Below, one piece after another: positions 27,695-55,164 of a stretch of DNA of 55,164 bases. The stretch is from Acidobacteriota bacterium. Its GTDB lineage: Bacteria > Acidobacteriota > UBA6911. A model generated the notes under the pieces. That model was not told where the DNA came from. It searched no databases and worked only from the letters and a program-made list of their open reading frames with translations. Within the stretch, counting starts at the first letter, position 1. Every line of letters begins with the position of its first letter. The stretch is from contig JAAYCX010000091.1 in assembly GCA_012729555.1 (NCBI GenBank), forward strand, positions 1-55,164, given 5' to 3'. The position numbers and the translations under genes were made by a program.

Positions 27695-27769
27695 GGCGCT
27701 ATCGTCTAGGGGTTAGGACGGGTGGTTCTCAGCCATCAAACCGGGGTTCGATTCCCCGTAGCGCTACCA
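27695..27769 (+). tRNA. tRNA-Glu (anticodon CTC)
   Basis: 75 nt including the encoded CCA. Acceptor strands GGCGCTA and TAGCGCT pair (with a G-U at position 1). The anticodon stem GGTGG/CCATC holds the loop TTCTCAG, giving anticodon CTC that reads GAG. The T-arm is GGGG-TTCGATT-CCCC. Discriminator A and the encoded CCA follow. The gene lies between ispH and the FHA/SpoIIE gene on opposite strands. Confidence 0.95.
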
Positions 27770-45797: not shown

Positions 45798-46993
45798 CTA
45801 CAGTTCCCCCCGGAACGCCTTGGCAAGCAGGGCGGACTGGAATTGCTCTAGCTCTTGTGCTGTCTCTCTTTGTAGTAATTCCAACTCCGCCAGTCTCTCT
45901 TGGAAGATTGTCAGTTCATCAATGACAGCTTTCTGCTTCTCGGTGTCTGGTATTGGTATGTGAGGTTGCTCCAGGCTGGCGTTTCAAGTTTCTTGGTTCC
46001 ATGGCCAGCCGTTTCGACCATGCCCTGCAAAATATCATTGGCCCCCCAAAGCATATGGGCGAGGTAATCGGCCGCAATTCCCTTTGCTGGCACAATGGCT
46101 TTCATGTCCTGGTTGATTGCGCAAGGCACTTCGGAAACAGCAACAGGAACATAGCGGGCCAATATCATTCCACGGACGACAAAGAACACAGATCCAGCTG
46201 GAATAAGTTTTGCGGAAGATTCCGAAATCGCTGTTTCGGTGATCTGCTCGGAGGAAGCAGTGATGCGAAAGGTTTTCATCTCCTTGGGGGCAACCCACGG
46301 GATATCTCCATGCCAGTAATCATCCCGCTTCTTTGATGGTGTGCCCCCTCCCATTACCTTGCCGCACTTGCCAAGCGGCTTTACTGGGAAGTCTGACAGA
46401 AGTGATTGATATATATTCCGTCTTATATGGAAAAACTGAGTGGCGATTTGAGCCACCGCCTCCTGCCGCAGTTTTCGGGCCTCTTCGGCGCGGCGGCTTA
46501 GCTCCTCGATCCGCGCCACGATCCGGCGTTGTTCGTCGATGGGAGGGATGGGGATTTTGTATGATTTTAGATCAGGAGTTCGTATACGAGGCATCTTAGC
46601 CCCATCCATCTTTGTTCTGGAGTATTCAATAAATTGTGGGCTTCGAAGACATAAAGCCAACCATTCTCTCGACAAACTATCTTCTTTAGGCCTTAAGGGA
46701 AGAATGTCAGTGGAGCAAATACCTTCCTTGTCTGGCAAAACAACTTTGTTTAGGTATGGCCTAAGTTTCCCAAATAAGACATGTGAGGAATCAAAGCGGA
46801 ACTTGCCACTCAGGATGGTTGCACCTTGAACAGACTGAAGATTTACTAACCGACCTGTCCCGGATTCGACGTTTTCAAGAGCAATATAATTAAACTGGGT
46901 TTCGGGCGATTCACTTGGCAGCACTTGTTTCGTATCAATATCGATACGTTCGACCAAAGAAACTCGTTCCCAGTTGGCATGCAAGCCACTCAT
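45798..46993 (-). pseudogene. hsdS: Type I restriction specificity subunit, frameshifted
   Basis: 360 residues are open from 46993 to 45911 with two target-recognition regions and the central conserved repeat IPIPPIDEQRRIVARIEEL. The open frame then goes wrong. Shifting frame near 45962/45963 restores the family C-terminus (HIPIPDTEKQKAVIDEL ... LLAKAFRGEL) to a stop at 45798, two bases before the next gene. One missing base therefore destroys the second conserved repeat. The intact protein would be about 398 residues. Either the gene is phase-off or mutated, or the assembly has an error. A 4-bp overlap with hsdM confirms the start. Confidence 0.85.
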
Positions 46994-48519
46994 TCCCCAT
47001 TCCCTCCGGCCAGCAATTCCTGCATCTCGCTGATCAGCCCGAGAATCCGCTCTTCCTTGGCGGCGACCGAGGCCAGAATCTCCTCCGGCTCAGCGTGCTC
47101 GACCGTCTCCGCCTCGATCAGGCCGAGACCAGAAAGGGTCATGTTGTAACCGTTGTCGATGATCCGCTTCGCCGGAACCAGCCAGGCGCGGCCTTCTTCG
47201 GTTTTCCGTTTCGGCCACATGGCGAGCAGGTCGGGAAAGTCATTTCGGTACTGGCTGCCGAACTTGCGGGCTTTGGAAAGGGACGAGCCGTCGCCGTCCA
47301 CCTTGAAGAACCAGACGTTCTCGGTGGCCCTGCCGGTGTTCCGGAAGATGAAGAAACAGGTGGGGTTGGGTGTGTAGGGCTCGAACATCCCTTTGGGCAG
47401 GATCACCACCGCCTGCAGATCGAACTCGCGCAGCAGCCGCTCCTTGACGGTGACGTGGCTTCCGGTATCGCCAAAAAGGATGCCGTTGGGGAAGATAATC
47501 CCGGCGGTGCCGCCGGGCCGCAGGCTGCGAAGGGCATGGGCCAGAAAGAGGACGTATTTGTCGCCCTTTTCGATGCGCAGCGAGCGCTTGGCATCGCCCC
47601 GCGATCCGGAGAAGGGCGGATTTTCGAGGATGTAGTCGAACTCGATTTCGTCCCATTTGTCCTCGCCGCCGCAGATGGAGTCGCGCTGGACCATGGGGCA
47701 GCGGTCGAAGCCGTGGAGCATGGCGTTCATGGCGGCCATGCGCAGGATGTCCTGATCGCCGTCGAAGCCGTAAAAGGCCCCGGTCTGCAGGAAATCCCAC
47801 TGGGCGCGGCTGAGCTTGTCGCCGATGCCGATCTTTCGCACTCCGCCGTCGGGCGACGCCTTTTCGTGAACGAATTCCGGGCTGGTGTTGGCCAGCAGCA
47901 TGTGCTCGTAGGCGGCGATCAGAAAACCGCCGGAGCCGCAGGCCGGGTCGCAGACGGTGCCGCCGATCTTGGGATCGACCATCTGGGTCAGCACCCGAAT
48001 CAGGTGGCGCGGGGTGCGGAACTGGGCCGCCTTTTTCTGCCCGCCCAGTTCGCTGGCTAGGTATTCGAAGAGATCGCCCTTGACGTCGGCATCCATGCCG
48101 AGAAAGGAGATGGGCGCGATGATGTCCACCGCCCGCCGCAGGGTCGCCCCGTTGGGGATAACGATGGCGGCGTTGCGGAAAATTGCCCGCGCCCCCTGGG
48201 AGAGCTCCGGGTGCCTGGCCAGCAGCGGCAGGGTGTCGCGCAGGGTGCGCAGCATGGCCTCATTGTCCGGATTGGAGGTAAGCACACTCCAGCGCAGGGG
48301 GTCGAAATCGAATTCCTCATTCCCTTCCTTGAACGTGCCGAACAAGGTGCGGTAGTTGCCGTTGCGGGCCTCCTGCTGTTCGTGGTCCATCTCCTCCAGC
48401 ATCTTCAGAAAGAGCAGGTAGGAGATCTGGGTGACATAGGTGATGGGGTTGGTGACGTTGTTGTCCCACATCACCTTGCAGAGGGATTTGAGGGTGTTTT
48501 GCAGTTGACCGCTGTCCAT
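46990..48519 (-). CDS. hsdM: Type I restriction-modification DNA methyltransferase subunit
   Basis: 509 residues. N-6 adenine DNA methylase: a helical N-terminal HsdM_N domain (LKSLCKVMWDNN, SYLLFLKMLEEMD), SAM-binding motif I DPACGSGGFL, and catalytic motif IV ENPPF. AIIFPNG-like GIIFPNGILFG and the C-terminal helical region for HsdS binding are present. With HsdS it methylates target adenines to protect host DNA. It overlaps hsdS by 4 bp and follows hsdR by 18 bp. HsdM itself is intact, but without a working HsdS it has no target specificity. Confidence 0.95.
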   Translation of the reverse strand: MDSGQLQNTLKSLCKVMWDNNVTNPITYVTQISYLLFLKMLEEMDHEQQEARNGNYRTLFGTFKEGNEEFDFDPLRWSVLTSNPDNEAMLRTLRDTLPLLARHPELSQGARAIFRNAAIVIPNGATLRRAVDIIAPISFLGMDADVKGDLFEYLASELGGQKKAAQFRTPRHLIRVLTQMVDPKIGGTVCDPACGSGGFLIAAYEHMLLANTSPEFVHEKASPDGGVRKIGIGDKLSRAQWDFLQTGAFYGFDGDQDILRMAAMNAMLHGFDRCPMVQRDSICGGEDKWDEIEFDYILENPPFSGSRGDAKRSLRIEKGDKYVLFLAHALRSLRPGGTAGIIFPNGILFGDTGSHVTVKERLLREFDLQAVVILPKGMFEPYTPNPTCFFIFRNTGRATENVWFFKVDGDGSSLSKARKFGSQYRNDFPDLLAMWPKRKTEEGRAWLVPAKRIIDNGYNMTLSGLGLIEAETVEHAEPEEILASVAAKEERILGLISEMQELLAGGNGE

Positions 48520-48537
48520 CAGGAATCCTTATCTTTA

Positions 48538-50883
48538 TTACGCCACAAGAAGGGCGTTCAGTTCGTCGACCATTTCCAGGAGCTGTTCCTTGCCGAAAAG
48601 CTGTTCCATACGGGTCAATCCGCCCCAGAGGGAGAACGGCGGCTGGCTGAAGAGACGCATGGTGATCTCCTCGCCGGTCATAACCCGCGCCTTGAGCAGT
48701 CGAAGCATCTGAGCCTGGGCCGGGTTGATGCTGCTGGAGTGTTCGGAGACCCAGGCATTGAAGGCTTTCTCGATGCGCTCGTCCCGGGTGAGGAACCGAT
48801 CAAGCCCCAGGGCCACACGGATGAAATCGGTGAGTGAGCCGGTGGGCTGCTCGAAGGCCCGGCGCAGTGTCTCTTCGTTGAAATAGTGCCGGGGCGAGTT
48901 GAGACGGCGAGCGAGCGCCTCCCATTCCTCGTCGGCCAGTTCCTCGCCACGAAAGATCTTTTCCACCGCCGGATCGGTGCGCTTGAGCTCGACCACCTTC
49001 TTTTCCCATTCCTCGCGGTAGGTCTTGCGATCCATGGCCAGCCCTTCCGGACCAACCAGAATGATCTCGCGGGAGCGGATTTCGTCGTCGAGCGAACCCT
49101 CGGCAATGGTGAGAAACTCGCGATGACCGCCCTCGGGATAGGTGGTGCCAGTTTCCGGCTGCGGCACGTCGCCTTCTTCAATCTCGCCGGTTTCGGCCGG
49201 GCGCGAACCGGGAGAGACGCCGACCAGCTTCGGTTTGTCGTACCGCTCGCCGGGGTCGTTGAACCGCTTCGAGTTGCCGACAAAGTCGTAGATGATGAAT
49301 TCTTCCTTGCCGATCTTCGGGCACAGGCGGCTGCCGCGTCCACGCATCTGAGCGTATTTGATAGGCGACTTGGTCGGCCGCAGCATGATCAGGTTTTCGA
49401 TGTTCTTCTGATCGTAACCAGTGTCGAGCATGTCCACGGATACGGCGACCAGCGGCAACGGGTCGTATTTGAATTCATCGATAATCGGCTTGGGGTTACC
49501 GTTGTTGGTGTAGCAGGTGATCTTCTTGGCGAAGCTCTGCCGCACCTCGGACGGCGAACGGTTGATCTGCCCGGCGATGCGCAGACAGTCTTCATCGGAA
49601 AGCAGCTTGTTGAATAAGCGTACAAGGATCGACGCCTGTTTTTCCGACACCGCAAAGACTATGGTCTTGCGCGGCCTGACCCTGGCCCGTTCGGCGTCAG
49701 CGGCGTAGTATTCCTGCAGGATGGTCTTGAGTCGGTCCTCGGATTCCACGTCGCGGCCCCAGGCACCGGGCTTGATCTCTTCGTCCTCCCACTCGGCCCC
49801 TTCGAAGGTCAAAACGCTTTCGGCGTGATAGACGCGATACTTGGTGAGATACCCATCGTTGATGCCGCGCTGGATGCCGTACTCAAAGGTAGGGCGGCCT
49901 TCTTTCTTGGCTGCGTCCCAACAATCAAAAAAGATGTAGGTGTTGCGAACCAGACGGCGCTCGTGTTCGCTGATAAAGTGCAATTCTCCGGGGTTGGGGG
50001 TAGCGGTCAGGCCGACGTGTATGGCGTCGAAGTGACCGAGCGTGGCCCGGTGAGTATTGTAGATGGAACGGTGGCATTCGTCGGTGACCACCAGGTCGAA
50101 ATACCCATGGCCGAAACCGTTACCGCCAAGTTGGGTAGCAATGGTGTCCAGGGTGCCGACAACGATCTGCCCTTCCAGGCTGCGCTTGCCGCCGTAAAGG
50201 ATGACCGTCGGCCAGTCGCGCAGGTATTCGTCGAAGGTTTCCTTGGCCTGTTTGGCCAATTCGATGCGGTCGACCAGAAAGAGCACGCGGGAGATGATGG
50301 CTGTTTGCAGCCAGCGCTTCATCAGCATGGCGATGGTCAGGGTCTTGCCCGTACCGGTGGCCATTTCAAAGAGCATGCGTCGCCGACCGGCGATGAGCGC
50401 GTCATCCGCTTTTTGCAGACATTCAAGCTGGTAAGGACGTGCTTCGACCTCCTCACCCTTGAAATCGAAACGGTGCGGCAGGGGTTGCAGTGAGAGGCTC
50501 AGCCGGATGTCTCCCTTACGGTGGACCTTGATATTGGCCCTCCGTTCGAGATCGGCCTGGCTGGGGAAACCCATCACCGGCCGGGCATCGCCATCGGTGT
50601 AATCCCAGAAATAGTGTTCCTGGCCATTGCTCAGGATGACAAAAGGCGCTTTCAGCGTCAGGGCATACGCCTTGGCCTGCTCCTTGGCAGTGTATGGATC
50701 GACGGCAAAACGCTTGGCCTCGAGAACTGCAAGCGGACGGCTCCGGGTATCCTTCAAGAGGTAATCGGCACGGCCGTCGGCGGCAGCTTCCTCCGTGGAG
50801 ACCTGCGCTTTGTTGGTGATGCACCAACCTGCCTGCTCAAGCAGCCTGTCAATCACAATGCGGGCATCAGCTTCTGTATTCAT
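48538..50883 (-). CDS. hsdR: Type I restriction endonuclease motor/nuclease subunit
   Basis: 781 residues. N-terminal PD-(D/E)xK nuclease with the residues in DGRADYLL and LAVLEAKRF; SF2 DEAD-type motor with FEMATGTGKTLTIA, VTDECHRS, GLTATPNPG, and MRGRGSRLCP near 595. The C-terminal HsdR domain that contacts HsdM follows. It cleaves unmodified DNA after translocation. The shortened length (many HsdR are about 1000) is typical of the compact EcoKI-unlike subfamily annotated as type I restriction subunit R. It overlaps the XRE gene by 4 bp. Base composition is clearly below that of the first 38 kb. Confidence 0.94.
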   Translation of the reverse strand: MNTEADARIVIDRLLEQAGWCITNKAQVSTEEAAADGRADYLLKDTRSRPLAVLEAKRFAVDPYTAKEQAKAYALTLKAPFVILSNGQEHYFWDYTDGDARPVMGFPSQADLERRANIKVHRKGDIRLSLSLQPLPHRFDFKGEEVEARPYQLECLQKADDALIAGRRRMLFEMATGTGKTLTIAMLMKRWLQTAIISRVLFLVDRIELAKQAKETFDEYLRDWPTVILYGGKRSLEGQIVVGTLDTIATQLGGNGFGHGYFDLVVTDECHRSIYNTHRATLGHFDAIHVGLTATPNPGELHFISEHERRLVRNTYIFFDCWDAAKKEGRPTFEYGIQRGINDGYLTKYRVYHAESVLTFEGAEWEDEEIKPGAWGRDVESEDRLKTILQEYYAADAERARVRPRKTIVFAVSEKQASILVRLFNKLLSDEDCLRIAGQINRSPSEVRQSFAKKITCYTNNGNPKPIIDEFKYDPLPLVAVSVDMLDTGYDQKNIENLIMLRPTKSPIKYAQMRGRGSRLCPKIGKEEFIIYDFVGNSKRFNDPGERYDKPKLVGVSPGSRPAETGEIEEGDVPQPETGTTYPEGGHREFLTIAEGSLDDEIRSREIILVGPEGLAMDRKTYREEWEKKVVELKRTDPAVEKIFRGEELADEEWEALARRLNSPRHYFNEETLRRAFEQPTGSLTDFIRVALGLDRFLTRDERIEKAFNAWVSEHSSSINPAQAQMLRLLKARVMTGEEITMRLFSQPPFSLWGGLTRMEQLFGKEQLLEMVDELNALLVA

Positions 50884-51110
50884 AGTTCCTTCCCCTCAAC
50901 GAGAAAGCCATCCTTTCTTTTCTGTTTGCAAAACTGCTCGAATTGCCGCTGAGCCAGCTTCGACGGCACGGTCTTGCCGTTCTCCCACCGGTTGACCGTG
51001 GCGAAGCTGACCCCGAGGGCGTGGGCCAGTTCCTCCTGGGAGAGCGCCAGCAGCCGCCGGACCTCCTTGACCGTTTCCGGGAAGTTTTCGGGTTGGCGGA
51101 TCATGGCCAT
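50880..51110 (-). CDS. XRE-family helix-turn-helix regulator
   Basis: 76 residues. The helix-turn-helix is VRRLLALSQEELAHALGVSFATVNRWENG with the usual XRE positions, and the basic tail KQKRKDGFL follows. A controller-type repressor or activator of the restriction operon is likely, as in C-protein systems. The stop overlaps hsdR's start by 4 bp (ATGA) and the start overlaps the preceding gene's 3' end by 10 bp. The near-palindrome at 51674-51687 upstream of the operon is the natural operator candidate. Confidence 0.85.
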   Translation of the reverse strand: MAMIRQPENFPETVKEVRRLLALSQEELAHALGVSFATVNRWENGKTVPSKLAQRQFEQFCKQKRKDGFLVEGKEL

Positions 51111-51430
51111 GGGATATCTCCTGCTGATTGGACGAGGCGCAGCAGGCCGGGCGCGACGTTCCACTGGTGGCCGTCGTCGGTGGCGACGCTGATGGTCTTC
51201 TTGTTGAGGCGCAGCACCATGCCTTCGAGCATCCGGCCGTCCGGGGCCTGGAAGCCGACCCGGTCGCCCCTGGTGAAGCTCGTCATCAGCGTGGTGGCGC
51301 GGGCCTGGGAGATGAGCTTGAGCCGCTCGACGATCAGACGGTTGAGAAAAAGGAGATCGTCTTCGTTCAATCGCTTGATCGCCTCGACGGCGGAAACGCG
51401 ATCGACGATCTTGACGCTGCCGGGTTTCAT
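51101..51430 (-). CDS. Small hypothetical protein (SH3/KOW-like)
   Basis: 109 residues. A helical N-terminus (VEAIKRLNEDDLLFLNRLIVERLKL) is followed by a beta-rich C-terminal part (GDRVGFQAPDGRMLEGMVLRLNKKTISVAT), which looks like a small SH3/KOW barrel. Similar small genes precede hsdR genes in other restriction operons, from memory. Function unknown. It overlaps the XRE gene by 10 bp and the preceding small ORF by 4 bp, so it is part of the operon. Confidence 0.7.
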   Translation of the reverse strand: MKPGSVKIVDRVSAVEAIKRLNEDDLLFLNRLIVERLKLISQARATTLMTSFTRGDRVGFQAPDGRMLEGMVLRLNKKTISVATDDGHQWNVAPGLLRLVQSAGDIPWP

Positions 51431-51657
51431 GACTTTTCCTCGGGTTTGAACACCATGAGCAGCGGCCGCAATTCGGGCACGTCGTCACGGGTGATGCTCC
51501 TCGGAGCATGGTCGTCGTCGGCGGTCCTGGCCGCGAACTCCTCCCGGGCCGGGCAGGTGAGTTCCCGAAGTTCCAGGACCAGATTCGACCTTCGCTGGTG
51601 ACGATCCAACAGATTTCTCCTTGGAGATGCCGCTGGTGGGGCGACGATATCATTCAT
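51427..51657 (-). CDS. Small hypothetical protein, first gene of the island operon
   Basis: 76 residues, basic at the N-terminus (RRNLLDRHQRRSNLVLEL) and acidic in the middle (TADDDHAPRSITRDD), no recognised domain. Its start lies 20-30 bp after the predicted promoter, and its 3' end overlaps the next gene by 4 bp (ATGA). The tight coupling is the only support that it is real. Confidence 0.5.
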   Translation of the reverse strand: MNDIVAPPAASPRRNLLDRHQRRSNLVLELRELTCPAREEFAARTADDDHAPRSITRDDVPELRPLLMVFKPEEKS

Positions 51658-51707: not shown

Positions 51708-51724
51708 GCAGGATTGTGTTTCAA

Positions 51725-51780
51725 CCTTCGCTGAAGATTCAGCGTTCGCCAAAGCTTCAGCCTTCGCTAAAGCTCCGGCT
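51725..51780. repeat. REP-like imperfect repeats (TTCGCxAAAGCTyC units)
   Basis: Three degenerate copies of an approximately 18-bp unit (CCTTCGCTGAAGATTCAG, TTCGCCAAAGCTTCAG, CCTTCGCTAAAGCTCCGG) lie in tandem. Translated they give FAKASAFAKAPADK, a junk peptide that I recall from many environmental genomes carrying this repeat. Related blocks occur at 52154-52266 and 52387-52494. They separate the defence operon from the following small gene. Confidence 0.65.
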
Positions 51781-51808
51781 GACAAGACTTGCAGTCTGGT
51801 GGCGGCTT

Positions 51809-52051
51809 TTACCACAGGCGCTTGTTGGCAAACGCCCGGCCGGATCCTGTTTTCAAGTACTGTTCGAAAGCAGTAGCGCGCCGATCGTCGTCAAAACGAA
51901 TAGCGGTGACAATGCGCCACGGCGGATATTTGGAGGTATGAGGAGAACCGCCCTGATTGTGGGTGACCAGACGTTGCCGGAGGTTTTTCGTCGAACCGAC
52001 ATAGCGTTGTTCGGGATGGGAGAGACTCTGGAGCAGGTAGACGTATCTCAT
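51809..52051 (-). CDS. GIY-YIG domain small protein
   Basis: 80 residues. The start VYLLQS, the RYVGSTKNLRQRL motif (the GIY-YIG core, usually YVG.T.NL..R...H), and the FEQYLKTGSGRAFANKRLW tail match short GIY-YIG proteins of the UPF0213/YhbQ-like class found beside repeats. Catalytic Arg (in QRL) and Glu (in FEQYL) are visible, so nuclease activity is possible. It is read opposite to the flow of the repeats and is probably a small mobile or repeat-associated gene. It is not part of the defence operon. Confidence 0.75.
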   Translation of the reverse strand: MRYVYLLQSLSHPEQRYVGSTKNLRQRLVTHNQGGSPHTSKYPPWRIVTAIRFDDDRRATAFEQYLKTGSGRAFANKRLW

Positions 52052-52067
52052 CTTTGTGAACCCGTTC

Positions 52068-52266
52068 GGGGCCTGCCTGGGACTACAGATAATCTAATGA
52101 AGCGAGGGGGAATTGAGCCAACAAAAGAGGGGGTCGGTCACATCATACTGGGGGGGGGGCCTCCTTCGTCCGCCTGCGCTGACGCTCCGGCGAACTACGG
52201 CGGCCCGCCTGCGCTGAAGCTCCGGCGGACTACGTCAAGGCTCCGGCCTGCCGGCCGAAGCCTTGA
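52068..52266. repeat. Repeat unit 1 of a ~232-bp tandem duplication
   Basis: Starts with GGGCCTGCCTGG and ends at a REP-like hairpin. It is about 200 bp and matches 52300-52494 with scattered substitutions, at a distance of 232 bp. It includes GGTCACATCATACTGGGGG and the segment CCTGCGCTGA(C)GCTCCGGCG(A) TACGG. The hairpin at 52237-52264 pairs AAGGCTCCGGCC with GGCCGAAGCCTT around a 4-nt loop. Confidence 0.75.
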
Positions 52267-52299
52267 TATGCGCATTTCATCATTTTCTAAAGTCCGGTT

Positions 52300-52494
52300 G
52301 GGCCTGCGTGGGGATTCGGATTCTCTAATGAAACAAGGGTAAGTTGGGCCAAGATGATGGGAGAGTAGGTCACATCATACTGGGGGCCCTCCTTCGTCCG
52401 CCTGCGCTGATGCTCCGGCGGACTACGGCGGCCCGCCTGCGCTGAAGCTCCGGCGGACTACGTCAAGGCTCCGGCCTGCCGGCCGAAGCCTTGG
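52300..52494. repeat. Repeat unit 2 of a ~232-bp tandem duplication
   Basis: Second copy of the unit at 52068. It begins GGGCCTGCGTGG and keeps GGTCACATCATACTGGGGG and the same REP-like hairpin (52465-52492). The two copies differ at many positions in their first 90 bp but are almost identical in the last 110 bp, indicating either recent spread of the hairpin half or homogenisation. Confidence 0.75.
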
Positions 52495-53018
52495 CGAAGG
52501 CTGGTGGAGGACTGGGAGTCCTGGCTCGACCAACCATCCTTGGCGAGAATATGGGCCAAATCGTTCCCTGTCTATGACTTGTGGTCGGCCAAGAATGACT
52601 TCTCTCCAAAGGCGAGAGAGGAAGCAAAATTGACTCGGATTTCCTTTTTCGCTCCAGCCTACTTCTCCAACGCCATAGCAAACCCTGGATTGAATGTTGG
52701 ATTCCCGTCGATCACCGGATAGACGAAAGGATTGCGCAGATCACTCGAGTTGTCTCCAGCATGTACTCGCGTGAGTCGTGGGAATGGCCTTGAATCCAAA
52801 GACGCGGCTCCCGGCCCAGGGTCAGCTCGTTCACATCGCATACGGACAATCGATTTGGAGGGCTGGATCGGAGACGGAGACCAACGGAAAAACCGGGTTG
52901 GGCTTAACACGGGCGCTTGCCTTGGACGGGAATAAGGAATATCAAAGATTTGTTTTCAGATGAAGATCTAGGGTAATATCGCAACTGTGTCCGAGGAAGG
53001 GTTGAAAGACAAACTGAA
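52495..53018. other. Gene-free stretch between repeats and the efflux genes
   Basis: No supported gene in 524 bp. Short frames on both strands lack recognisable domains or Shine-Dalgarno sequences. A candidate promoter for the next gene is TTGTTT (52950-52955) with TAATAT (52974-52979), spacer 18 bp, about 40 bp before the ATG at 53019. Confidence 0.5.
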
Positions 53019-53462
53019 ATGATACGACCCAAACGTACGATTATGATGGCGCTGGTGGCGCTGTTGGTAGCAGGTGGGCTGGGAAATGCCCACGGGGTGG
53101 TGTTGTGCTTGGCGGCTGACGGCCACGTTGAGATCGAGTCGGAGCCGGAAAAGTGTTGCTCGGGCCTCCTCTCGGCAAGGAGCGGCTCAAGAGAACTTGC
53201 AGCGCGAGAGCTAGTAGATGCCCCCGGCAACTCTTCTCATTGTGGACCCTGCGTTGACATACCCATCGGGATTGGTGATCCCACAATACAGAAGAACCTG
53301 ATTCTTCAGAACTCGCCATCCCCTGTGAAGCCTCTGGCGGCCGTGGCTTCGGGCTACACTTTCGGTCCTTCAGAGGCTTCTTTGGGGCAGAGCGCACCAA
53401 CCGTGCGACGCGCCGATGATGGAACGCTATCTTCTCTCAGGACGACCGTCCTTCTAATCTGA
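53019..53462 (+). CDS. Small exported cysteine-containing protein near efflux genes
   Basis: 147 residues. A signal peptide is clear (RPKRTIMMALVALLVAGGLGNAHG). The mature part starts VVLCLAADGHVEIE, then a pair of cysteines (EKCCSG) and a SSHCGPCVDIPIG motif, and ends in a low-complexity tail. Proteins of this look are often found just upstream of CusC/CzcC-type efflux genes. A metal-binding role is plausible because of the cysteines and histidine, but is not shown. The following gene is a lipoprotein 93 bp downstream. Confidence 0.65.
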   Translation: MIRPKRTIMMALVALLVAGGLGNAHGVVLCLAADGHVEIESEPEKCCSGLLSARSGSRELAARELVDAPGNSSHCGPCVDIPIGIGDPTIQKNLILQNSPSPVKPLAAVASGYTFGPSEASLGQSAPTVRRADDGTLSSLRTTVLLI

Positions 53463-53555
53463 TTCCCCTCCTGTTTCTTCAGTCCCTTTTCCATGCCCGA
53501 ATTGTGTCCGTGCTCATACCATGCGAGGACACGGCAATTACAGGAGGAAAGTACC

Positions 53556-53849
53556 ATGTCAACCCTCATCAATCGCGATTCCCGCGCGACTTTCGCAGTG
53601 TTGGTCACGGGCCTATTGCTAGTTGGCGGGATCGGCTGCGCCACCACAGACACCGAGACTGCCAAGTCTAAGCGAGTCAATCCTATCGTCGAGCAAGCGA
53701 AGGCGCATGGCCACACGCCTTGGCGATACAGAGGATTTCGAGGACGTAGAAGCATGCGTCCTCGCTACAAGGCACAGAAGCCTATATTCCCCTGCAAGCA
53801 GTGCGACGGAGGAATTGACGTGGTAAGCAAAGAGGTTGACGGCCAATGA
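53556..53849 (+). CDS. Small lipoprotein
   Basis: 97 residues from the ATG at 53556, which has an excellent AGGAGGAAAG site. A hydrophobic stretch (TFAVLVTGLLLVGGIGC) ends in a cysteine with a lipobox-like VGGIGC, so it is probably lipidated in the inner or outer membrane. The C-terminal part is basic (RYRGFRGRRSMRPRYKAQK) and has CKQCDGG. Its stop overlaps the start of the TolC-like gene by 4 bp (ATGA), so the two are coupled. Function unknown. Confidence 0.7.
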   Translation: MSTLINRDSRATFAVLVTGLLLVGGIGCATTDTETAKSKRVNPIVEQAKAHGHTPWRYRGFRGRRSMRPRYKAQKPIFPCKQCDGGIDVVSKEVDGQ

Positions 53850-55039
53850 TTACTGTCTTTCAATTAACGTACAGGGCATCTCAGTATTGCCTAGGTGTCG
53901 CTCTTTTGTTGGCGTTTGCAGCTAACGGGAGTGCTCAAGAATTGGCCCCTTCCGCGTCGACAGAGGCGAGCGAAAGAGCCAGCAAGGACAATCCAGCCGA
54001 CGGGACGGAGTTGGGCGCCCTAACCCTGCCCGACGCCCTATCGTTGGCCCTTCGGGAGAGCCCGATTCTAGCCGCCTTCACATGGGATATTCGGGCTGCA
54101 GATGCAATGGTCCAGCAGGCTGGCCTGAGACCAAACCCAGAACTCTCGGTAGTAATTGAGGAGGTGCGTTGGACTTCGGGGCCTTCCGAGAAGACGCGAT
54201 CAACCACTATCTCCGGTGCTCTTGAACCCGGGACCCTAACCATTCCGGGGATGAACGGGCAACCATCGATAGATCTGCCTGTGATCCGAGCCAACCCTGC
54301 GTCGGGATGGGAATGGGAGAAGGTGCAGGGGGCTCGTTCCGGCTTCAGTGAGTCCGAGTTGACCATCAGCATCGCGCAACCGATTCAGCTCGGGAAGAAG
54401 CGCGCAAAGCGCGTCGCGGTTGCTGAACGGGAAAAGGAACTGGTCCTCTGGGATTACCAGGCGGCACGGGCCGACGTCCTGGCTCAAACGGCCTCGGACT
54501 TCGTTGAGGTGCTCGCCGCCCAGGAGCACGTGGCCCTAGATAGGGAACTGGTCGAGCTGGCCGAAGAGATTGTTCGAACGTTTTCACTCCGCGTAAAGGC
54601 AGGCCAGGTATCTCCGCTGGAGCTGTCTCGGGCGGAAGTAGCGCTTGCCACTACTCGCGCCACTCTTGAAGAAAGCCTTACGGGGCTTGAAGCGGCGCGT
54701 GCGGTCCTTGCTTCGAACTGGGGAAGCAAACGCGCTACGTTCGCGCGAGCCGTCGGGCGATTGGACGAAACTAGCCCTGTGCCCGGGATCGAAGAATTGG
54801 AAGCCAGAGTGAATCGAAATCCAGATATGGCACGCTGGTCTTCTGAATTGGCGGCTCGCAGGGCGGACTTCACGCTTGAGCGGGCTCAGCGCATTCCGGA
54901 CCTTACGGTCGAGCTTGGGTTCCGCAGCGCGGGCCTGGCCGACCGCAAGGCAACACAGTACGGGTTCGGTTCTGCCGGCGACTTCGGCTTCACGCGAAGT
55001 GAGACCGGATACAGCGCCGACAGAGATAACAGTCTGGTT
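53846..55039 (+). pseudogene. TolC/CusC-like outer-membrane efflux protein, truncated by an insertion
   Basis: About 398 residues are readable. A signal peptide (YRASQYCLGVALLLAFAANGSAQ) is followed by TolC-family helices: LTLPDALSLALRESP at the start of the first repeat, LRPNPELSVVIEE, QPIQLGKKRAKRV, and the second-repeat KAGQVSPLELSRAEVALA. The final IPDLTVELGFRSAG region, then SADRDNSLV, should continue with the VSLPLPLF-like strand and another 60-80 residues. Instead the frame ends at once (TGTTAG). The sequence change at about 55040 coincides with an IS-like end, so insertion is the likely cause. The family exports metals or drugs together with an RND pump, which is not in the window. 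Confidence 0.8.
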
Positions 55040-55164
55040 TGTTAGCAGGCTTTTGAAAGGGAGCCATTTTCAGGAGGTTAATCGGGAGCCATTTTCACGG
55101 CAGACAGACTGATCCCATACTCTCTGCTTTATTTCATCGCAAGATTTTCCTTCCGCAATCAACG
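55040..55164 (+). mobile_element. Left end of an IS21-like insertion sequence (partial)
   Basis: From about 55040 the sequence begins TGTTAGCAGG and soon shows two direct copies of GGGAGCCATTTTCA (55059-55072 and 55084-55097, 25-bp period). Multiple short repeats of this kind next to a TG terminus are a feature of IS21-family ends, where they bind the transposase. The transposase genes would lie beyond the window. The left boundary fits the break of the TolC-like frame. The identification rests on memory of the family and needs the right end. Confidence 0.55.

Follow-up and report, generated by a model that had tools for sequence, protein, structure and literature searches.

In REP/RAYT systems, the RAYT gene is flanked by repeats and is associated with its cognate repeat type. 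Free-standing GIY-YIG homing endonucleases, such as those encoded by the phage T4 Seg genes and I-TevI, are another class of small nuclease. Palindromes without a known transposase have been described as CGTC-tagged REPs, many of them in alphaproteobacteria (Di Nocera et al, 2013; PMC3733652), and a 2006 survey of GIY-YIG proteins records an HsdR gene that has gained a GIY-YIG domain by insertion (PMC1564403). Within the open-licence PMC literature we found no description of GIY-YIG genes together with palindromes at bacterial tRNA ends; subscription papers and preprints lay outside this scope, and priority is unproven. Here, we compare these systems with a locus in the window, that is, the whole 55,164-nucleotide stretch of acidobacterial DNA analysed.

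The tandem hairpin unit and its GIY-YIG gene

A tandem pair of ~230-bp hairpin units (52069-52501) stands directly 5' of a minus-strand GIY-YIG gene (51809-52051). The sequence-only reading had described a tandem ~232-bp unit with REP-like hairpins, its two copies diverged in the 5' part and nearly identical in the 3' part. This description holds: three repeat blocks align in register, at spacings of 228-232 nt, and the uneven divergence of the units is therefore real. Block 1 (52069-52121 versus 52300-52352; 53 nt, spacing 231) is 75% identical between copies, whereas block 2 (52133-52154 versus 52365-52386; 22 nt, spacing 232) and block 3 (52154-52265 versus 52382-52493; 112 nt, spacing 228) reach 95% and 97%. 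The shared 12-bp-stem hairpin was likewise recovered in both copies, as the 30-nt sequence CAAGGCTTCGGCCGGCAGGCCGGAGCCTTG with 12 Watson-Crick pairs and one T.G, on the minus strand at 52493-52464 and 52265-52236. Each unit has two further imperfect palindromes besides this hairpin. The gene-distal copy (52300-52501, minus strand), whose outer arm starts with GCCTTCGCC, thus has hairpins at 52464-52493, 52433-52456 and 52388-52432 and a spacer at 52300-52386; in the gene-proximal copy (52069-52299, minus strand) the hairpins lie at 52236-52265, 52205-52228 and 52160-52204 and are followed by the diverged spacer. Folding of the units as single-stranded DNA gave -40.6 and -35.9 kcal/mol, with z-scores of -4.1 and -2.6 (200 shuffles).

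The kinship previously proposed with repeats at 51.7 kb is accounted for by repeat family D2, which comprises six 24-nt copies (at 51742, 51760, 52172, 52207, 52400 and 52435) with 71-100% identity to the reference copy. Those within 51742-51783 adjoin the nuclease stop codon on its downstream side, forming part of a stretch of hairpin-related repeats at 51720-51783, 26-89 nt past the stop, where a repeat search of the window also found a tandem row (51720-51774). The peptide FAKASAFAKAPADK is a direct plus-strand reading of these repeats. Repeat copies downstream of the nuclease were also found at three other loci (L048, L054 and L057). Beyond them in the window, the type I restriction-modification genes hsdS, hsdM and hsdR and an HTH gene adjoin the element (45911-51653, minus strand), and 53019-55045 contains two small ORFs that match no Pfam family and, close to the end of the contig, an outer membrane efflux protein (PF02321).

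In its own genome (3.83 Mb, 98 contigs), the 427-bp unit has a full match at the window locus only; five short matches (E 0.001-0.76) lie inside other sequence and look like chance. The 24-nt core, allowing up to three mismatches, occurs at six places, five of them at the window locus. The genome's sole solo copy is a single-hairpin relative, CCATCCTTCGCCTCCAGCTTCGGATGG, located exactly at the CCA of a tRNA-Phe gene on contig C26. Copies of the family are thus few in this genome, and the full unit is unique.

The gene encodes an 80-residue, single-domain protein that matches Pfam PF01541 (E=2e-12) and contains the catalytic Tyr, Arg, His and Glu of the GIY-YIG fold. Six residues are invariant in 37 aligned relatives (Y5, Y17, G19, R27, H31 and E63), and we take these to include the canonical GIY-YIG catalytic set. 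The AlphaFold2 model (mean pLDDT 97.4) has its best Foldseek matches in Slx1-Slx4, At-HIGLE and standalone UPF0213 proteins, and the predicted fold is Slx1-like. Two of four close pairs gave dN/dS values of ~0.08-0.09 (for L074/L076, dN is 0.095 and dS 1.10), a third pair, of low divergence, gave ~0.36, and the fourth showed saturation; the nuclease is under purifying selection and retains its catalytic residues. With tblastn, none of 72,556 plasmid records and none of 50,697 phage records matched; among 2.9 million viral contigs, the gene is present on three. We discarded a reading as a defence gene, PADLOC giving no match for the nuclease; the sole NCBIfam match was far below the cut-off, and PHROGs returned a weak match of unknown function. 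The nuclease tree (37 sequences, with labels of 11 phyla) has 4 of 35 branches starred, and this poor support means that it does not prove interphylum transfer.

The tRNA and tmRNA 3' end as the home site

One scan of species genomes yielded 54 GIY-YIG relatives, from at least 11 phyla by label. Core repeats gather around them, with 30 occurrences within 1 kb of the nuclease (at 19 of the 54 loci; 109 kb) against four further off (174 kb), and a reversed-pattern control at the same loci gave two within 1 kb and none beyond. Among 396 genomes of the window's phylum, the core repeat is present in 34 and the nuclease in 33; 14 have both, compared with ~2.8 expected (Fisher p=2e-8). These counts support the earlier suggestion that the repeats form a mobile family tied to the GIY-YIG gene; the movement is something that we infer. 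Core-repeat copy number ranges from few in the window's own genome to 60 in G125, which, like two other core-rich genomes (G285, 38; G354, 25), has more matches than tRNA-end sites. Tandem direct repeats of at least 40 nt were detected upstream of the nuclease by script at 2 of 40 loci (L068 and L074), and repeated units were recognised there by eye at L280, L284, L288 and L289. The window's tandem unit resembles those 5' of the nuclease in L074, L280, L284 and L288.

The repeats target tRNA and tmRNA genes at the 3' end, a point absent from the sequence-only reading. The element normally sits exactly at the end of such a gene, from the CCA onwards and in the orientation of the RNA gene. ARAGORN placed a same-strand tRNA or tmRNA upstream of the nuclease at 42 of the 54 loci, in 40 cases at a distance of 93-428 nt (15 tmRNA genes and 25 tRNA genes of 11 isotypes). 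Since the nuclease gene and the RNA gene share a strand in all 40 close loci, the nuclease may be read from the RNA-gene promoter. At L057 a tRNA-Ala lies further off, with the hairpin split by an inserted transposase gene, and at L083 the tRNA is 1.5 kb from the nuclease. ARAGORN found no upstream tRNA or tmRNA at the other 12 loci, eight of which have less than 500 nt of upstream sequence; two of the 12, L048 and L058, have a T-arm, CCA and hairpin by pattern, and L043, L082 and L091 have no tRNA or tmRNA upstream. Rfam 15 reported only tRNA, in eight loci, at gathering scores.

The hairpin usually starts with the CCA of the RNA gene. At 26 of 40 loci a perfect stem of 8 bp or more begins between -3 and +2 of the RNA end. 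Four control offsets gave 1, 5, 0 and 4 of 36-40, and none of 30 tRNAs in the window's own genome had such a stem. Exceptions are L086, L088, L089 and L090 (Bacteroidota and Nomurabacteria), in which the RNA end reads CC followed by TTCGC, not CCA followed by NS. The tRNA CCA is able to pair with the TGG of the hairpin. GTAG is found inside several right-hand hairpins, not as a terminal tag. Because the CCA is retained, insertion should be tolerated and the RNA gene should survive. There is no integrase inside the window element, and the 93-428 nt gap between RNA gene and nuclease at the 40 loci leaves no room for one. We also noted that the tmRNA 3' end CCTCCACCA is duplicated ahead of the hairpin at L045 (just after 2568) and L160, as though insertion had copied its target sequence. 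Separately, in two viral contigs (L309 and L310; viral or prophage), hairpin and nuclease come right after apparent tRNA or tmRNA 3' ends.

The window copy itself adjoins no tRNA or tmRNA: ARAGORN predicts only a tRNA-Glu at 27695 in the window, and Rfam 15 gave no match at E<=1 in 52040-52760. Its left junction (52502-52510, minus strand) consists of the nine bases CCTCCACCA, the sequence with which tmRNA genes usually end. The left flank may be a decayed tRNA or tmRNA, though ARAGORN and Rfam gave nothing there and those nine bases alone fit. The element's left end with ~150 nt of flank (52462-52657, minus strand) is 85% identical over 196 nt to positions 2644-2839 of L043, from a metagenome-assembled genome labelled Sumerlaeota, whereas identity between the two nuclease genes is 74%. 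This likeness could stem from a copy transferred together with its flank or from a wrong bin. Lying at a non-tRNA site, the window copy would, on the explanation put forward below, be an off-target or transferred copy.

The same genomes have hairpin-only copies at many of their other tRNA genes. In one genus within the phylum, tRNAs for Ala, Lys, Phe, Gly, Cys, Leu, Tyr and Thr bear solo hairpins at the CCA, with no nuclease, and in some clusters several of the tRNAs are followed by one. A strict tRNA-end pattern (T-arm, 12 nt, CCA, NSCTTCGC) matched 185 places in 59 of the 396 phylum genomes, up to 15 per genome, against two for the reversed pattern; six of the 59 are counted through tRNA-Thr trailers of one genus (L148-L153), not hairpins. 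These trailers, in which CCCTTCGC follows the tRNA, have no hairpin and look vertically inherited, and we treat them as false positives. Most of the tRNA-end hairpin sites in the phylum have no adjoining nuclease. Among nuclease-bearing genomes from many phyla, the strict pattern was present in 32 of 45, and at two or more places in 15 of 45, with none for the control. Phylum genomes with at least two tRNA-end sites are enriched for the nuclease (12 of 31, versus 33 of 396 overall; p=7e-7). Nevertheless, 38 of the 59 motif genomes, and 19 of the 31 with at least two sites, have no nuclease match (E<=1e-12), and hairpins therefore persist without the nuclease. The two bases after the CCA covary with their partners before the TGG, being fully complementary in 44 of 53 cases (shuffle mean 12.9, maximum 23). 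In the window's own genome, 29 of the 30 tRNA contexts examined are without a hairpin. A second palindrome family, CCA followed by TTCGACTCGCC...GAGTCGAAGGGC, also starts exactly at the tRNA CCA (L133, L134, L139 and L144); it is presumably the source of the FDSLRSLR-type junk peptide.

Site states and the pairing of nuclease with hairpin

Sites occur empty, with a hairpin only, and with a hairpin plus nuclease. The tRNA-Ser(CGA) gene of the window's own genome (G000) is empty, and the same gene is filled at L044, in the same genus; the two sequences are 71% identical over 1559 nt, a match that ends 3 nt past the tRNA, at the CCA. The tRNA-Ser sites of genus g99 show presence and absence of the element, with no downstream homology. 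A fuller series came from the site between tRNA-Ala(GGC) and caiB in the Rhodopseudomonas family, for which 119 genomes were searched and both sides could be paired in 24 of 31 loci, 23 of them distinct. Six of the 23 are empty, seven have a hairpin without a nuclease match (one retaining a 3' remnant of the nuclease) and ten have both hairpin and nuclease, the latter being partial in L308 and carrying an internal stop in L281.

Two hairpin classes are found at this site, seven copies joining one class to an MWYVYI-type nuclease and three joining the other to an MKYVYIL-type, where the types of L281 and L308 were judged from the remaining part and L288 has a changed start. Nuclease identity tracks hairpin identity (r=0.81, Mantel p=0.0004) and not the identity of caiB (r=0.11, p=0.26); between L280 and L076, for example, caiB is 92% identical and the nucleases 60%. 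At one site, therefore, nuclease type switches along with hairpin type and regardless of the adjoining host gene. Moreover, three genomes (G434, G436 and G448) have solo hairpins at tRNA-Ala(CGC) of the same class as the genome's own nuclease (L248, L246 and L265, respectively). Over 24 diverse loci the correlation between hairpin and nuclease is weak (r=0.15, p=0.025), so we confine the claim of pairing to close comparisons.

By eye, class A and class B copies share common host sequence from ~20-30 nt past the last conserved nuclease residues, which places the element's right end within that stretch. An attempt to fix the exact right boundary from empty sites was abandoned, the intergenic DNA being too diverged, and near-identical strains yielded no case of a recent insertion. 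At L290 and L300, whole or partial CGTCATTGCGAGCGAAGCGAAGCAATC-type repeats (CGTC REP-like) lie downstream of the tRNA-Ala hairpins.

A proposed selfish element and its relation to known systems

The likely explanation, in our view, is a selfish element analogous to REP/RAYT, in which an Slx1-like nuclease acts on its cognate hairpins and the target is the tRNA 3' end. The cognate pairs, the solo copies at many tRNA ends and the mixed site states all fit a selfish element acting in trans. To the composition, target and cognate pairing that were observed, this explanation adds cleavage and movement, which we infer. The Slx1-like fold suggests that the nuclease cuts branched DNA, for example extruded hairpins. 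The nuclease would recognise its cognate hairpin, as a cruciform, as other branched DNA or as single-stranded DNA at replication, and/or the tRNA end, and would cut there. During repair, recombination between tRNA ends or between hairpin copies could then seed new tRNA ends with hairpins, at times carrying the nuclease gene along, while hairpin-only copies would be moved in trans by the nuclease, whose gene the tRNA promoter may drive.

Part of this evidence could also be read at the level of RNA. A GIY-YIG RNase might cut a tRNA-hairpin precursor in which the hairpin pairs with the CCA and blocks maturation unless freed, the two forming an addiction pair. The potential pairing of CCA with TGG and the common strand of gene and tRNA or tmRNA in all 40 close cases would suit such a module, as would the fusion of a prokaryotic Slx1-like domain with a TrmH-like tRNA methyltransferase that Dunin-Horkawicz et al (2006; PMC1564403) report. 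However, many genomes have tRNA hairpins and no nuclease match (G134, for example, has nine), and the closest folds are those of DNA structure-specific nucleases, and we consider the module improbable. No better placed, and equally improbable, is a use by the host: the hairpins would terminate tRNA transcription or signal 3'-trailer processing and would have spread through ordinary recombination, with the nuclease gene a passenger. Hairpins do lie on the transcribed side after tRNA genes, and 19 of the 31 genomes with at least two sites manage without the nuclease, but the sequences examined have no T-run typical of intrinsic terminators after the hairpins, orthologous sites are often empty (6 of 23, besides the 29 of 30 bare tRNA contexts in the window's own genome), and a passenger nuclease would not predict co-switching with hairpin type.

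Two further readings seem to us very unlikely. A RAYT transposase had been put forward beforehand as a candidate partner, and the hairpins could be classical REP/REPINs moved by such a Y1 enzyme, with the GIY-YIG gene nearby by chance. They are indeed REP-like and form inverted pairs, and Y1_Tnp was found in 24 of the 35 carrier genomes searched, including two matches in the window's own genome. Both of these lie off the window contig, however, and Y1_Tnp is absent from the other 11, among them G245 with 15 tRNA hairpins and G433 with ten, so RAYT does not explain the hairpins and the candidate falls. Debris of integrase-type islands or prophages would share the target zone at tRNA and tmRNA 3' ends, and the three viral contigs agree with it; yet the whole unit is shorter than ~0.8 kb with no integrase inside, the plasmid and phage records gave no match, and the copies examined show no tRNA duplication at the far end.

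We give about even chances to a broader form of the selfish-element proposal, namely a new kind of mobile element that lands on the universal tRNA CCA. The tRNA's CCA would itself be the foot of the hairpin (CCA-NS...SN-TGG), and any bacterial tRNA or tmRNA gene that encodes CCA could then accept the element unharmed, with a minimal Slx1-like nuclease reading and moving its cognate hairpins in trans and with common 'junk' repeats as its decayed or escaped copies. If true, repeats passed over as junk in environmental genomes would gain a function and a partner enzyme; selfish DNA would be exploiting, with no need of an integrase, the best-conserved end of the best-conserved genes; and REP/RAYT would have a parallel built from unrelated machinery, a palindromic mobile element that uses a GIY-YIG nuclease and no transposase. 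The questions raised are whether the nuclease cuts hairpins or tRNA ends, whether hairpins affect tRNA maturation and whether the gene is read from the tRNA promoter, and the empty, hairpin-only and full sites of the tRNA-Ala series are a ready test set.

Among known systems, integrase-type tRNA islands differ in that no tyrosine or serine integrase lies inside the element. Standalone UPF0213/Slx1-like proteins (1zg2 and 1ywl) have the same fold and size, and the available part of the 2006 survey gives them no mobile-repeat role (PMC1564403). The element is like a homing endonuclease gene in that its small GIY-YIG gene may spread through cleavage of empty sites, and in that one site has both occupied and empty alleles; unlike one, its 80-residue product has an Slx1-like fold and no DNA-binding extension, and it is accompanied by palindromes and has many tRNA targets instead of one site. 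The CGTC-tagged REPs are also palindromes without a known transposase, and their tails often fit CCA; their 8-9 bp stems, however, start with AT pairs and carry the CGTC tag, and the available part of the paper draws no link to tRNA-gene sites or GIY-YIG proteins (PMC3733652). With REP/REPIN and RAYT the element shares palindromes that are short, imperfect and arranged as inverted pairs, numerous solo copies and one linked nuclease gene that is flanked by repeats and cognate with their type. It differs in its target, the tRNA or tmRNA 3' end, and in its nuclease, a GIY-YIG protein and not a Y1 HUH enzyme, Y1_Tnp being absent from 11 of the 35 carriers. By analogy, then, the element would appear to work like REP/RAYT, yet with an enzyme other than the one that defines that system.
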